The position numbers were made by a program, and so were the translations under genes. Of a stretch of DNA of 23,512 bases, positions 10,136 through 21,845 are shown piece after piece (position 1 is the first letter of the stretch; each line of letters starts with the position of its first letter). The stretch is from a virus. The notes under the pieces were generated by a model. The model made no database searches, was not told where the DNA came from, and saw only the letters and a list, made by a program, of their open reading frames with translations. The stretch spans positions 1-23,512 of IMG/VR virus record IMGVR_UViG_3300044635_000319, one strand, 5' to 3'.

Positions 10136-10317
10136 CAGATCACCTCAATCGACCCATGTTTGATTTGCAAACGGTAGTCGTTTAGCCTGCCAGTAAATGT
10201 TTCGCCCACTTCTTTGCCATCAACAGGACGCACAACCTTAAGCATCACAGCATCACCTGATGGCTGCTCTACCTGCTCAACAACGTCTGCTGTTTTACGC
10301 TTTGTCGGTTTTTTCAT
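10135..10317 (-). CDS. Small unknown protein, 60 aa
   Basis: I place the start at ATG 10317, with GGAG 10 nt upstream; a TTG three codons earlier is too close to that site. The protein begins MKKPTKRKTADVVEQ and ends GRLNDYRLQIKHGSIEVI. It has a basic N-terminus and a short beta-like C-terminus, with no membrane segment. It overlaps the DUF115-like gene by 23 nt and the adaptor start by 1 nt, so it is translated within the head operon. I do not recognise the family; a small capsid-associated or connector accessory protein is possible. Confidence 0.7.
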   Translation of the reverse strand: MKKPTKRKTADVVEQVEQPSGDAVMLKVVRPVDGKEVGETFTGRLNDYRLQIKHGSIEVI

Positions 10318-11008
10318 CAGGTACAATCTCCAGTGATTTATGCTTTATCTGTCGCCGCACTTCAAACTCTGGCAACGTCAGTATTGTTCCAATAGGCCAT
10401 TCACAGCCGCGATAAGTGAATAGTGATTTAACTCTAACCTTAACGCAGCCATCTCTTGCGTCACCTAGTATCTCAGGAATTGCAAATTTATCAAAATTCT
10501 CTGTTATTTCGTGCTTTGGATACATTCCAATCAATGCCCCAGAGGCAACACGAACCTGACAACGCACCTCTGGCACAAAGAATTTGTGCATATCAATAAT
10601 TTTCTTGTCGCCATTATAGCAATCATATCCTGCGATTATAACAGGATGCGCCCCCATTAGGTACGCCACCCAGACTGCCATTACTCCAGAATTAAACATT
10701 CTTGGATAACCAGGCCACTTGTGCATCTGATACTGACCCCAGTGCCACGGTGATATTACCGGCGCATCAGAGTATTGCCTTAGGAAATGCCGCATCTCAC
10801 CCTTGTTTGCTGTGTGGATGTTGTCCATGCAAACAATATAATCAACAGGCTTTAGCTTTGCCCCGTGATTGTTGACGCTTATCCAGATGTCTGCCTCGAT
10901 GCCTTCAATATCCGATTGCAGGGTCTTGCCGCCACCCATGACGCAGATTCTTTTCCCAGCATGACGCATGATCAGGTCAGCCAGTGGAGCAGTTGGTTCA
11001 AAGTGCAT
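10295..11008 (-). CDS. MptE/DUF115-like Rossmann protein, probably sugar-related
   Basis: The 237-aa protein starts at ATG 11008, overlapping the glycosyltransferase stop by 11 nt. Residues 20-28 (RICVMGGGK) are a Gly-rich nucleotide-binding loop. Residues 40-60 (DIWISVNN...VDYIVCMD) and 106-131 (NSGVMAVWVAYLMGAHPVII, then AGYDCY) match the layout of the DUF115/MptE-like family. In that family NSG..A..LA...G..PIIL.G.D is the core, and members include flagellin glycosylation factors (Maf) and a pterin pyrophosphokinase. With a glycosyltransferase and methyltransferase next to it, a role in handling a sugar or sugar nucleotide is plausible. The family match is moderate and the substrate unknown. 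Confidence 0.55.
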   Translation of the reverse strand: MHFEPTAPLADLIMRHAGKRICVMGGGKTLQSDIEGIEADIWISVNNHGAKLKPVDYIVCMDNIHTANKGEMRHFLRQYSDAPVISPWHWGQYQMHKWPGYPRMFNSGVMAVWVAYLMGAHPVIIAGYDCYNGDKKIIDMHKFFVPEVRCQVRVASGALIGMYPKHEITENFDKFAIPEILGDARDGCVKVRVKSLFTYRGCEWPIGTILTLPEFEVRRQIKHKSLEIVPDEKTDKA

Positions 11009-11552
11009 GTTCTATGTCCCACGGTCTGGGTTTGCCGTGATAGCACACCACATTGGCATCTTGTGGAATTCCATTAGTGCAATGCCTTTTATAGCTGTAC
11101 ACCTTTGCAATGCGCTGCCATCGTTTTGCTGTGTGCAGGTGCTGGTTCAAATAGCCCTGATCACCGAGCGTTATATTCTGGCTGATGTGTTTGCCTGGTG
11201 ATTTAATCCAGTGATCCCAAATTTTAAATCTTGTTTGCTCGGTAAGGTACATCAGGCCGGAACCAATCACATCAGGGTTACCAAAGTCAGTCAGCACACA
11301 ATCGCCTTCTGGTATTTCAGGCATCTGGATAACCGTTGTATCGAGGTCAAAATAGAAAATGTCGCCTTCAATATCTGGGCGAAACATCTCCATTTTGCAC
11401 CACCATGACGGCCAGTTGTAGTGCATTGGTATGACAGGCAGACCATGTATAAACACATCGGATATGCAAAAAAGGTCAGGAACCATGCTGGCAAGTCGCC
11501 GCACATGTTCTGGGTTAAAATCGCCACCTGATTTAAGAACGCAAAGATTCAT
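10998..11552 (-). CDS. GT-A fold glycosyltransferase (GT8-like)
   Basis: The 184-aa protein starts at ATG 11552, 20 nt inside the methyltransferase gene; a TTG one codon earlier is less likely. Residues 1-10 (MNLCVLKSGG) form the first Rossmann strand. FYFDLDTTV carries D69-L70-D71, the DxD metal/nucleotide-sugar motif. GDQGYLNQ around D131 matches the acceptor-side motif. CYHGKPRPW (170-178) matches the H..G..KPW end motif of GT8 enzymes. It is shorter than cellular GT8 proteins (about 300 aa), as phage versions often are. It should transfer a sugar from a nucleotide sugar in the cytoplasm; the acceptor (capsid, glycan or DNA) is not visible. Confidence 0.75.
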   Translation of the reverse strand: MNLCVLKSGGDFNPEHVRRLASMVPDLFCISDVFIHGLPVIPMHYNWPSWWCKMEMFRPDIEGDIFYFDLDTTVIQMPEIPEGDCVLTDFGNPDVIGSGLMYLTEQTRFKIWDHWIKSPGKHISQNITLGDQGYLNQHLHTAKRWQRIAKVYSYKRHCTNGIPQDANVVCYHGKPRPWDIEHAL

Positions 11553-12081
11553 CAAACACCGCCAGCGTCAGGTCGCAGCCGTAGCGCGGATATTGTACGT
11601 TGATAACCTGATACGGTCTTTGGATCATCTCAGCGTATTCTGACAGCTCACGATTAAAGACAGGCGGGTTGCCTGGTCTTCGCCATTGTCTGCCCATGAT
11701 CTCGCCAATCACTATTCGCTTGTATTGCTTTGCCAAACTGATCACGTTTTCTATTTCGTAGTCAGGCACATGTAGCAAGACAGTGTACGCAAGAAACGTA
11801 TAGGCATGATAGATGTAGCCTATGGCATGATCATCGGTATATTGATAAGACGGATTGTTTAGTCTCGCTGCTTTGATTGCAGAATAGTTTATGTCGTAGC
11901 CAACATATTGATCAGAATTAAAAGCTGGCGCAAGCCGACCATCGCCGCAGCCAAACTCGAAAACATAACCTTTGATTGCTTTTTGTAAGGCAGGAAACAG
12001 ATTTACTTCGGGGAATCGTTCGCCCAGCGGAGTAATGTGCTGCAACTTTTCATTGCTCGCCCAATACTCCGCTGGAGTCAC
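11533..12081 (-). CDS. Class I SAM-dependent methyltransferase
   Basis: The 182-aa protein starts at GTG 12081, two bases after the major capsid stop, with no strong ribosome site, so it probably depends on coupling. Motif I is VFEFGCGDGRL (residues 40-50). The acidic ribose-binding residue is D63 in YVGYDINYSAI. A motif IV region follows, with TFLAYTVLLHV in place of the usual acidic D.v....vleHv. There is no DPPY/NPPF motif, so it is not a typical DNA adenine or amino-cytosine methylase. Small-molecule, sugar or protein methylation fits better. It overlaps the glycosyltransferase by 20 nt. Confidence 0.78.
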   Translation of the reverse strand: MTPAEYWASNEKLQHITPLGERFPEVNLFPALQKAIKGYVFEFGCGDGRLAPAFNSDQYVGYDINYSAIKAARLNNPSYQYTDDHAIGYIYHAYTFLAYTVLLHVPDYEIENVISLAKQYKRIVIGEIMGRQWRRPGNPPVFNRELSEYAEMIQRPYQVINVQYPRYGCDLTLAVFDESLRS

Positions 12082-12083
12082 GT

Positions 12084-13052
12084 TTAAGCAGCCTGACCCA
12101 GTGTCAACACGCCAGCAGTGTGCTTCACGCTGGTAGCGATCTTGGTCCAGTTGCTGCCAGTGCCAAGCTCTGCATCAGTCGGTGATGCAACAGACTTGCT
12201 CCAAGCGTAGCCCTTCAGACCCAGACCAAACGTGTAGTCAGCCTGCATGGTAGTCTTGATGCGCTGACTGCCGTTGCTGGTTTCTACGTTGGTGATCAGG
12301 TCGCCAGCATCGTGTACAACAATGCCGCTTTGTGCCAGTGACAGAATCTTGATGTCATTGGTGGAAGTTGCAGGAGTCTCACGCAGTGCAGGAGCGTCAG
12401 TCACAACGATACGCTTGCCCAGAATCTCGACAACAGTCACAGTGCCAGCTTGGAAAAGCTCTGCGCCGTTAGTCAGGTTCTGACCGATCAGCTTGTGATA
12501 CATCACGCCGTCCATCACATCACACACCAGCAACTGGCTGGAATCGCCAAACAGTGCGTGTGAGTTGTTGATGTCGTTGTAGGTCAGATCACGGCCAGTG
12601 CCGATGTCATTCGTGACCGTTGCGCCGAGGTTCTCCATTGCAGCGATTGCTGATGCGATACCAGCGTTCAGCATGTCACGCAGCATTGCCTCAGCCATGT
12701 TGCGGGAGATAACTTCAACAGCAATAGTCGGGTTATCACCGACCCAACGCAGTTGTGAAGGTTCCCACTCAATTGGACCAAAACCGCCAGCAACCTTTGC
12801 AGTCACATGCTCAAGCTGTGCAAGCTGAGTGCTTGATGCGCTGGTGTTGGTGGCGTAGCGATCTACACGGCGTTGTGCGCTGTGCAGGCTGGAGAACATT
12901 GACTTCAGGAAGAAGTCGCCGTCAAAGCCTTGCGTAGACAACTGGATGCCGCCGTTGCTGGCTGCGTTAAATTTCTCGACCATTTGGGCAACAGTTTCAA
13001 TTGTTGCTTCTCGGACGTACTCGTTAAACACTTTCATGTTGGTTAGAGCCAT
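12084..13052 (-). CDS. Major capsid protein
   Basis: The 322-aa protein follows the scaffold gene and has the strong ribosome site AGAGG 8 nt before ATG. The N-terminal stretch (VREATIETVAQMVEKFNAAS) and the central region (IEWEPSQLRWVGDNPTIAVE, MAEAMLRDMLNAGIASAIAA) fit a coat protein with a long N-arm, E-loop and helical P-domain spine. A late strand block (VTVVEILGKRIVVTDAPALR) follows. The HK97 fold is inferred from position and pattern. The C-terminus (ASPTDAELGTGSNWTKIATS) is like that of related phage coats. It assembles on the scaffold. Confidence 0.82.
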   Translation of the reverse strand: MALTNMKVFNEYVREATIETVAQMVEKFNAASNGGIQLSTQGFDGDFFLKSMFSSLHSAQRRVDRYATNTSASSTQLAQLEHVTAKVAGGFGPIEWEPSQLRWVGDNPTIAVEVISRNMAEAMLRDMLNAGIASAIAAMENLGATVTNDIGTGRDLTYNDINNSHALFGDSSQLLVCDVMDGVMYHKLIGQNLTNGAELFQAGTVTVVEILGKRIVVTDAPALRETPATSTNDIKILSLAQSGIVVHDAGDLITNVETSNGSQRIKTTMQADYTFGLGLKGYAWSKSVASPTDAELGTGSNWTKIATSVKHTAGVLTLGQAA

Positions 13053-19853: not shown

Positions 19854-19881
19854 ACTCACATCGGCGGCATCCAGCGGCCAC

Positions 19882-19901
19882 ACACAGAGGATAAAAAAAT
19901 G
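19882..19901 (+). repeat. Leader repeat copy 1
   Basis: ACACAGAGGATAAAAAAATG is identical over 20 nt to 20113-20132 and contains the ribosome site GAGG and the start codon. It is preceded by CGGCCAC, like the other copies. Confidence 0.75.
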
Positions 19902-20087
19902 AGAATACAACTGACAGAAATGCAAAATCTTCAAAACGGCTTTGTACGTGTATTTGCAGTAATTGGCGGCACTGAGGTTTGGATGAAGTTTGACGCAGCC
20001 AAGCAGCCTATTGATTCAACTTTCAAGCCAGAAAGCAAGCCTTTCGCTGCACTTGCTAAAAAATGCGCCAAGCTCTTTTCAGCATAA
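19899..20087 (+). CDS. Unknown small protein, 62 aa
   Basis: This is the first gene of the rightward operon, with GAGG 8 nt before ATG in the repeated leader. The protein starts MRIQLTEMQNLQNGFVRVFA and has a short beta-rich N-terminus (VFAVIGGTEVWMKFDA) and a basic helical end (FAALAKKCAKLFSA). There is no membrane segment or Cys/His metal set. I do not recognise a family. Its place directly behind the operator-controlled promoter suggests very early expression, as for small host-takeover proteins. Confidence 0.7.
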   Translation: MRIQLTEMQNLQNGFVRVFAVIGGTEVWMKFDAAKQPIDSTFKPESKPFAALAKKCAKLFSA

Positions 20088-20094
20088 CAACCAC

Positions 20095-20132
20095 GGCCAC
20101 GGACGGCCATCAACACAGAGGATAAAAAAATG
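20095..20132 (+). repeat. Leader repeat copy 2 with GGCC-GGCC dyad
   Basis: GGCCACGGACGGCCA at 20095-20109 recurs exactly at 20340-20354. It can fold as a small GGCC/GGCC hairpin. It is followed at 20113-20132 by the same 20 nt as in copy 1, ending in the ATG of the 67-aa gene. Confidence 0.75.
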
Positions 20133-20333
20133 GCAAATTTCGCAGCAGTCAACAAAGCACTCAAAACCGCTTACCCAGCACTGGACATAAAAGCCATGCG
20201 TGGAGAAGGTTATGTCTACTTCGGCGGTGATGACGGGTTCGATAAGATTGACTCGATCTTCGTCCACCCAACCAGCACTAGCACGGCAGACCTGACGCGA
20301 TTCGTGATCGAATCGGTCTCAGACCTAATTTAA
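20130..20333 (+). CDS. Unknown small protein, 67 aa
   Basis: The second gene of the rightward operon, with GAGG 8 nt upstream in the repeated leader. The sequence MANFAAVNKALKTAYPALDI, then MRGEGYVYFGGDDGFDKIDS, then a C-terminal LTRFVIESVSDLI suggests a compact alpha/beta fold. I recall near relatives as unnamed proteins on proteobacterial plasmids and phages, sometimes near antirestriction genes, but that link is weak. It is acidic in the middle (GGDDGFDKID). A DNA-mimic or antirestriction role can be imagined but is not supported by a motif. Confidence 0.7.
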   Translation: MANFAAVNKALKTAYPALDIKAMRGEGYVYFGGDDGFDKIDSIFVHPTSTSTADLTRFVIESVSDLI

Positions 20334-20339
20334 CCAACC

Positions 20340-20374
20340 GGCCACGGACGGCCACACACTGAGGAAATAAGATG
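20340..20374 (+). repeat. Leader repeat copy 3
   Basis: GGCCACGGACGGCCA (20340-20354) is identical to 20095-20109. It is followed by CACACTGAGGAAATAAGATG, a diverged form of the ribosome-site block of copies 1 and 2, leading into the ribbon-helix-helix gene. Confidence 0.7.
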
Positions 20375-20674
20375 AACAAAGATAAAGCAATGACCGCCAC
20401 CAGCTTAAGAATGCCTGATGGCCTGCTTAGACTGGTCACAAAGGCAGCTCACAAGTGTGAGCTATCCCGAACCGCTTACATCACACAGGCTCTGCAATCG
20501 GCTGTAGCGCATGATCTGCCTGACTTTGAATACAAGCAGGCATGGGAAACGCTTCAGGACATTTACGACACACTCTTGCCTAACATTGACAAGGACGGCA
20601 ACCCTGACAAAGACATGATGCTAGTTGCAGTTCTTGATATTGTTCTTCCACAACTTAAAGGTAACAGATTATGA
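20372..20674 (+). CDS. Ribbon-helix-helix DNA-binding protein, 100 aa
   Basis: Residues 8-45 (TATSLRMPDGLLRLVTKAAH, then KCELSRTAYITQALQSAV) have the RHH layout: a short beta strand with alternating polar residues, a helix, then SRTAYI..AL as helix 2. The C-terminal 50 residues are helical and acidic (LPNIDKDGNPDKDMMLVAVL) and may form a dimer or partner interface. RHH proteins bind operators as dimers, so this may regulate its own operon through the 19-bp palindrome or the leader repeats. GAGG lies 8 nt upstream. Its stop overlaps the start of the 28-aa peptide by 4 nt. Confidence 0.7.
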   Translation: MNKDKAMTATSLRMPDGLLRLVTKAAHKCELSRTAYITQALQSAVAHDLPDFEYKQAWETLQDIYDTLLPNIDKDGNPDKDMMLVAVLDIVLPQLKGNRL

Positions 20675-20757
20675 CCCGCGCCCAGAAGATCGACCTGCTT
20701 TGCTGTATCGCTACCTGCATCCTGTGCGCTGGCATGTTTATGCTGGTTCTTTTGTGA
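20671..20757 (+). CDS. 28-aa Cys-rich single-membrane-span peptide
   Basis: ATG 20671 overlaps the RHH stop by 4 nt (ATGA) and the frame ends at TGA 20755-20757. The peptide is MTRAQKIDLLCCIATCILCA followed by GMFMLVLL. It has a basic N-terminus and a continuous hydrophobic run from residue 9 to the end, with four cysteines at 11, 12, 16 and 19. This is a typical small membrane peptide, N-in by the positive-inside rule. A lipoprotein reading is unlikely because the cysteines lie within the span. The start/stop overlap and the exact fill of the gap before the next ribosome site support it being translated. Function unknown. Confidence 0.6.
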   Translation: MTRAQKIDLLCCIATCILCAGMFMLVLL

Positions 20758-20767
20758 GGTTATCCGA

Positions 20768-20992
20768 ATGGACTTATTTGATAAATATCCAGAGTGGGTA
20801 GGGATGCCAGAGTTTAATCAGCAAGAGAAAAAGCCATTTAAGGAAATAATCGTTAGATTTGACTCTGAACAAGATTACATGGATTTTCAGCAAAAAATTG
20901 AACAGAAGATGACACTTAAAACAAAAAGCATTTGGCATCCCTTTAAGTCTCATTGGGGTCTTGAGCGCAAGGTTTACGTTGATGAATCCTAA
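20768..20992 (+). CDS. Small conserved phage protein, 74 aa, paired with TAGT
   Basis: GAGG lies 8 nt before ATG 20768. The protein has an acidic, Trp-containing N-terminus (MDLFDKYPEWVGMPEFNQQE), an alpha/beta core (FKEIIVRFDSEQDYMDFQQK) and a C-terminus with TKSIWHP and RKVYVDES. I recall the TKSIWYP..., VDES ending from many small phage proteins next to TAGT glycosyltransferases or ParB-like genes, but not a function. Its stop overlaps the TAGT start by 11 nt, so the two are translationally coupled, which suggests a shared process. Confidence 0.75.
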   Translation: MDLFDKYPEWVGMPEFNQQEKKPFKEIIVRFDSEQDYMDFQQKIEQKMTLKTKSIWHPFKSHWGLERKVYVDES

Positions 20993-21845
20993 ATTTCCAG
21001 TCTATATAGTTTCCAAAGGTCGTTTTGATAACGGCCTTACAACTAGAGCGTTACACGAAATGGGCGTTCCTCACTACATTGTTGTTGAGAGTAATGAGGT
21101 TGACCTTTATCGCAAAGGCAGGTGTTTTGGCGAACTGATTGTGCTGCCATCTTCTTACAAATATGATTACGACCTTTGCGATAATTTAGGGTTTACCAAA
21201 AGCACAGGGCCAGGCCCAGCTCGCAACTTTTGCATTGATCACAGCAAAGCAAACGGATTTAGCAGGCATTGGGTAATGGACGACAATATTGATGCCTTCC
21301 ATTATCTAAACAAGAACGAAAAGTTTGAGGTTCGCACTGGATCAACCTTGTTAGCCTCTGAGGATTTTGTTTGCCGATATTCTAACATTCCTGTTGCGGG
21401 TCTCAATTACTACTCTTTCTGCAAGAAAGGAGATGCTGTGCCGCCATATGTGTTGAATACCAGAATTTACTCATGCCTGCTCATAGACAACAATTCTGGA
21501 TACCGCTGGCGAGGAAGGTACAACGAGGACACTGACTTGAGCCTGCGGGTTCTTAAAGACGGCCTATGCACTTTGCAATTTAACGCTTTTCTATGCGGGA
21601 AAATTACCACTCAAAGAATGCGCGGCGGTAATAGTGCCGACTTTTATGACAATGAAGGGACGCTACCGAAAAGCCAAATGCTTGCAGACCTGCACCCAGA
21701 TGTTGCAAAAGTTGTGTTTAAGTTTAACAGGTGGCATCACCACGTTGACTACTCAATATTTAAAGACAACATGCTGATAAAAATTGCCAATACTGATAGC
21801 CTGCCAAAAATTAACAATTACGGTATGAGCCTTGTGCAATGCTAA
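20982..21845 (+). CDS. TET-associated-type glycosyltransferase (TAGT)
   Basis: I start at ATG 20982 (287 aa, MNPKFPVYIVSKGR) rather than a TTG seven codons earlier, because it matches family N-termini and overlaps the upstream stop by 11 nt. The opening (FPVYIVSKGRFDNGLTTRAL, then VPHYIVVES) is the first GT-A strand and loop. GPGPARNF (77-84) precedes HWVMDDNIDAF, with the metal-site acidic residues D100-D101. RYNEDTDLSLRVLKDGL (179-195) is the conserved acidic motif. TAGT enzymes are proposed to glycosylate hydroxymethylated bases in phage DNA, often beside TET/JBP dioxygenases. No dioxygenase is in the window. Family assignment is fairly confident; substrate is not known here. Confidence 0.8.
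   Translation: MNPKFPVYIVSKGRFDNGLTTRALHEMGVPHYIVVESNEVDLYRKGRCFGELIVLPSSYKYDYDLCDNLGFTKSTGPGPARNFCIDHSKANGFSRHWVMDDNIDAFHYLNKNEKFEVRTGSTLLASEDFVCRYSNIPVAGLNYYSFCKKGDAVPPYVLNTRIYSCLLIDNNSGYRWRGRYNEDTDLSLRVLKDGLCTLQFNAFLCGKITTQRMRGGNSADFYDNEGTLPKSQMLADLHPDVAKVVFKFNRWHHHVDYSIFKDNMLIKIANTDSLPKINNYGMSLVQC

Follow-up and report, generated by a model that had tools for sequence, protein, structure and literature searches.

TET-associated glycosyltransferases (TAGT) were reportedly named in a 2013 paper. A characterised relative of the enzyme described here is the TAGT of phage T6, which acts on phage DNA and adds a second glucose onto glucosyl-hmC (PMC13216743; PMC13390438). In the former, a 2026 paper, a GT-A fold was proposed for the T6 and T2 enzymes, and 288 of 753 phage genomes were found to carry a TAGT but neither an alpha-GT nor a beta-GT; the function of these “solitary” TAGT was left open (PMC13216743). 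In Gordonia phage CaiB, ParB/TET genes precede the terminase (PMC9302106).

The S-TAGT gene pair and its genomic context

The window, i.e., the whole stretch of DNA that was analyzed, is the entire IMG/VR virus record IMGVR_UViG_3300044635_000319 (23,512 bases) and represents a genome fragment. It contains a TAGT gene that is preceded by the gene of a small partner protein, termed S, with the following features:

20756..20759, + strand: GAGG, located 8 nt ahead of the ATG of S and likely its ribosome-binding site
20768..20992, + strand: open reading frame of S, a 74-aa partner protein with the motifs W..GMPEF.Q ... VRF ... KTKSIWHP; proposed non-catalytic TAGT subunit
20969..20972, + strand: AAGG within the S gene, 9 nt ahead of the ATG of TAGT, for which it may serve as ribosome-binding site
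20982..20992, + strand: 11-nt overlap ATGAATCCTAA with the S stop and the TAGT start
20982..21845, + strand: TAGT-type GT-A glycosyltransferase (PF20691), 287 aa, ATG start
21279..21287, + strand: DDN motif, DxD-like, donor/metal site (residues 100-102; D100, D101 and N102 invariant)
21522..21536, + strand: NEDTD motif with the catalytic ED (residues 181-185; N181-D185 invariant)

Both open reading frames (74 aa and 287 aa) and their 11-nt overlap are present as stated in the original prediction, which had also described the enzyme as an intact TAGT. Indeed, the 287-aa protein matches PF20691 (TET-Associated Glycosyltransferase) with 164 bits, the cut-off being 27.5, over model positions 1-205 of 205, and its intact DDN and NEDTD motifs are invariant across 17 diverse relatives. 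TAGT relatives were found in hundreds of IMG/VR stretches, far above chance, and a plasmid search gave no matches. Sequence searches of solved structures returned none for TAGT and only chance-level matches for S. The predicted model of a fused relative (L028, 71% identical) matches GT-A transferases with a Z of about 13, and on this model the catalytic part of S-TAGT is a GT-A fold. Among the structural matches, the best are transferases that act on proteins and polysaccharides, including protein O-glycosyltransferases and a collagen galactosyltransferase. GT-A folds transfer sugars onto many kinds of acceptor.

The S-TAGT pair closes a + strand island (about 19899-21845) that is flanked by two - strand blocks, one comprising replication/recombination genes (NinG, NinB, a P-like helicase loader), the other with terminase, portal and head genes. 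The earlier placement of the pair in an early operon is not established by this arrangement, as the sequence does not give the timing of expression. Just upstream of S, a 28-aa hydrophobic ORF (MTRAQKIDLLCCIATCILCAGMFMLVLL; 20671-20757, + strand) may encode a small membrane peptide. Further upstream, the repeated leader pieces CGGCCACGGACGGCCA and ACACAGAGGATAAAAAAATG (19875-20370, + strand) precede three consecutive small ORFs (starting at 19899, 20130 and 20372) and may represent either a common regulatory leader or a duplicated one. Elsewhere in the window, three genes (10295-12081, - strand) adjoin the major head protein gene (12084-13052); they encode a 182-aa methyltransferase-like protein, a 185-aa glycosyltransferase (phrog_1962) and a 237-aa sialyltransferase-like protein (phrog_4603). 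Similar genes are located directly upstream of ParB-S-TAGT in an Erwinia locus (L152). As phrog_4603 was found in the window only and in 0/49 TAGT relatives, these glycosylation-like genes were rejected as part of the S-TAGT system.

Near-constant coupling of S and TAGT

The S protein of the window has no match in Pfam, NCBIfam or PHROG models; the S part of one relative (L146, region 162-208) matches phrog_22103, a 66-aa family without assigned function. The original prediction had considered the small partner a possible unrecognised subunit and proposed to count how often the two families adjoin. The 160 retained TAGT loci, which are of viral as well as bacterial origin and were not deduplicated, include 153 in which S directly adjoins TAGT or is fused to it. 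The seven exceptions comprise two contig edges (L063, L175), a shortened TAGT gene (L176), three loci with S at a distance of about 1 kb (L139, L140, L166) and a locus with two TAGT genes in tandem, the first of which adjoins S (L148). Two scans of IMG/VR, one starting from TAGT and the other from S, yielded 122 loci, corresponding to 76 clusters at 97% TAGT identity, and S was located directly upstream or fused in 121 of them, the sole exception lying at a contig edge. Similarly, the 34 TAGT loci identified among 84,980 bacterial species show the same coupling. Searches that started from S, with three different single S proteins as queries, revealed an adjoining TAGT in 53/53 and 32/32 cases (85/85); one of the 53 matches is divided between contig ends that share a 133-bp repeat (99%). 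Unless stated otherwise, near-identical contigs are part of these counts, and some of the S-first loci are shared with the TAGT-first set.

The exact 11-nt overlap was identified in 107 of 114 separate S/TAGT pairs (62 non-redundant), and its conservation suggests translational coupling of the two genes. S usually precedes TAGT; the reverse order, with a distance of about 100-140 bp, occurs in 16 viral contigs (L194-L199, L201-L210). No other neighbor of the pair is conserved, the runner-up family (terminase-like by eye) being present in 22 of 76 loci. A comparison of the S distance matrix with that of TAGT gave an r of 0.81, the permutation maximum being 0.17, and shared ancestry also contributes to this value.

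In a number of loci, S and TAGT are encoded in one open frame (L025-L029, L059, L060, L158, L160, L168, L173, L192, L200, L212, L213). Fusions with an S-like N-terminal region also exist in the cultured Aeromonas phages 65 and Aeh1, the Vibrio phages 1.076.O, 1.124.O and Kuja, Pectobacterium phage POP12 and Tenacibaculum phage PTm1, the region having been judged by eye for POP12, Kuja and PTm1. Every inspected cultured phage with this type of TAGT exhibits such a region. AlphaFold2 predicted the fused L028 protein (388 aa) as one compact GT-A unit that joins S and TAGT (mean pLDDT 90.8, pTM 0.91). For S alone, the model is poor (pLDDT 63.4, pTM 0.34), so that no fold is claimed for S; since the alignment is shallow (18 sequences), this low score is weak evidence. 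In view of the constant adjacency, the fusions and the compact joint model, the notion of a subunit has gained substance, and S is very probably a subunit or domain of TAGT. Two further observations were made among the cultured phages. In Kuja and PTm1, the N-terminal extension ahead of the S-like part includes another stretch (e.g., IFCRFDNQADLNTLSSFL) that resembles half of S and may have arisen by duplication of an S half-domain. An unannotated TAGT region with one in-frame stop is present in Vibrio phage henriette 12B8 (HQ316582, 6001-6846) and may reflect a pseudogene, recoding or a sequencing error.

ParB fusions and the source of the acceptor

In several viral loci, the gene before TAGT encodes a ParB-like protein with S at its C-terminus (e.g., L072, L081, L136-L141, L185, L211), and the same arrangement was recognised by eye in roughly 18 bacterial loci. 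In one case (L168), ParB, S and TAGT are joined in a single ORF. Three ParB-S proteins were compared with PHROGs; with values as low as 1e-55, they match ParB families as well as a DNA methyltransferase PHROG in its ParB region. The ParB part of the L081 protein is 54-58% identical to Xanthomonas and Stenotrophomonas phage proteins annotated as DNA methylase and similar; one of them, the Suso protein, has no recognisable methylase domain after ParB. Genuine fusions of ParB to an N6_N4 methylase exist in Roseburia phage Shimadzu and in FP_Lagaffe. In Erwinia and Bartonella loci, the order is ParB-S, TAGT and then terminase small subunit genes. The 74-aa S of the window carries no ParB domain, and neither does S in most relatives. 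A search for ParB in trans gave matches in 0/50 records with PF02195, a profile that also overlooks the divergent ParB of L081, and a peptide-pattern search with the ParB-S protein of L146 identified no viral relatives.

Neither a dioxygenase nor a hydroxymethylase was found in the window, a 23.5-kb fragment, in agreement with the original prediction, which had called for a wider search. In whole-record searches of 81 related viral records, some of which may be incomplete, TET/JBP dioxygenases were detected in 0/81 and members of the thymidylate-synthase family, including dCMP hydroxymethylase, likewise in 0/81. Several of these records span 30-90 kb, and one has near-identical ends (133 bp, 99%) and is therefore probably complete at 36.9 kb. 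As positive controls, T6 gp42 was detected at 1.7e-16 by the thymidylate-synthase-family search and the CaiB TET at E 6e-6; the latter lies below the family's own cut-off, and remote TETs could therefore be missed. Neither type of gene is present in the Vibrio phages 1.076.O and 1.124.O, whose genomes are about 48 kb long. Among the isolates, Aeromonas phage 65 has one thymidylate-synthase-family gene, and PTm1 has a second, gp42-like one. TET/JBP was present in one of 33 bacterial genomes with S-TAGT, and the only TET link found is a 5.5-kb contig of a Winogradskyella MAG (L158/L179), which encodes a Tet_JBP protein along with two TAGT, one fused to S and the other lacking S. DNA methylases were rejected as a constant partner, as a C5 methylase occurs in only 1/50 records and an N6/N4 methylase in 3/50. 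With neither TET/JBP nor thymidylate-synthase-family enzymes in the viral records, the known base acceptors are left without a visible source.

S-TAGT as a putative two-piece DNA glycosyltransferase

On balance, S-TAGT is probably a DNA glycosyltransferase in two pieces, with S as an obligate, non-catalytic subunit and with a likely protective base sugar as its product. In this model, S would pack onto TAGT as a separate protein in the way it does covalently in the fusions, and TAGT would most likely use a nucleotide-sugar as donor to glycosylate a base of the phage DNA. The added sugar would then protect this DNA from host nucleases. S itself may serve substrate engagement or targeting, a role as specificity factor being plausible, and in related systems it would connect TAGT with a ParB-like module similar to those found elsewhere in fusion with DNA methyltransferases. 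We regard DNA as the acceptor with reasonable confidence; it is favored over other acceptors because of the ParB-S and ParB-S-TAGT architectures and the one TET/JBP neighbor. Several points count against this model: the T6 enzyme, as the characterised relative, is remote and has no S, the known base acceptors lack a visible source, S carries no ParB domain in the window and most relatives, and GT-A enzymes serve many acceptors, with protein and polysaccharide transferases as the best structural matches. A further-reaching possibility, which is put forward tentatively and at somewhat under an even chance, is that S-TAGT sugars DNA at a hydroxyl that stems from no known route (TET/JBP, hydroxymethylase or 5-hydroxycytosine synthase). 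This would represent a new hypermodification with a dedicated subunit that is targeted by ParB in some phages.

A two-subunit glycosyltransferase in which S keeps its role and the sugar is passed to RNA, to a surface glycan or to a protein of either phage or host would agree with the 0/81 viral records for enzymes that make a hydroxylated base and with the protein glycosyltransferases among the structural neighbors. However, S is joined to ParB-like proteins whose homologues are fused to DNA methylases, one short contig combines S-TAGT with TET/JBP, and the T6 relative acts on DNA (PMC13216743), all of which makes a non-DNA acceptor rather unlikely. It is also conceivable that S-TAGT performs an ordinary second-step or hydroxymethyl-base glycosylation as in T6, with a hydroxymethylase or TET gene elsewhere in the genome and missing from the fragments. 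The fragmentary window, the overlap of the T6 TAGT with gene 42, the second, gp42-like match in PTm1 and the single TET/JBP contig are in line with this scenario, which we nevertheless consider quite unlikely: the viral records are devoid of such genes even where they reach 30-90 kb or are probably complete, the same searches do detect T6 gp42 and the CaiB TET, and the two Vibrio phages of about 48 kb have neither gene.

Small phage genes frequently hitch-hike, and a gene without known function such as S might merely travel with TAGT as an independent unit. The fusions to TAGT in several lineages, the occurrence of both gene orders, the 85/85 adjoining TAGT genes in S-first searches and the compact joint model argue against this view, which is very improbable.

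The two-piece model would provide the solitary phage TAGT class with a defining second component, and the fusions constitute a Rosetta-stone link of TAGT to ParB-type DNA modification proteins. TAGT expressed alone may fail, as S is probably needed alongside. With the natural S-TAGT fusions, cultured phages exist in which it can be asked where the acceptor hydroxyl originates.

The T6/T2 TAGT (beta-glucosyl-HMC-alpha-glucosyltransferase, phrog_842) and the window protein share PF20691 and the DD and ED motifs in equal order. However, the T6 enzyme and the window protein show no similarity by BLASTP, and the two are linked only through PF20691 (37 bits). In contrast to the window gene, the T6 gene is not accompanied by S and overlaps the hydroxymethylase gene (gene 42, annotated as thymidylate synthase); for its substrate, glucosyl-hmC, the window-type phages have no precursor enzyme. 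The window TAGT appears to belong to the “solitary” class. As far as tested, it is a PF20691 member outside the TET-linked or T-even systems.

The fusions of the cultured Aeromonas, Vibrio, Tenacibaculum and Pectobacterium phages are more similar, with a TAGT domain 51-70% identical to that of the window and an S-like N-terminal domain. They differ in being one protein instead of two overlapping genes, and most of their genomes have at least a thymidylate synthase. Shimadzu, FP_Lagaffe and CaiB share with the ParB-S relatives a homologous ParB-like domain and with the Erwinia and Bartonella loci the terminase-side location, but they carry a methylase or TET rather than S-TAGT, and the window lacks the ParB domain.

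In the accessible text of the 2026 paper, there is no description of S, of the ParB link or of the missing acceptor enzyme (PMC13216743). The searchable literature likewise yielded nothing on S, on its connection to ParB or on the coupling of S and TAGT, and an earlier notice of S or of ParB-TAGT is possible. TAGT and phages with a “solitary” TAGT are thus already published, whereas the lack of an acceptor-making enzyme across the tested viral records, the obligate S and its fusions to both ParB and TAGT are new within the searchable literature.
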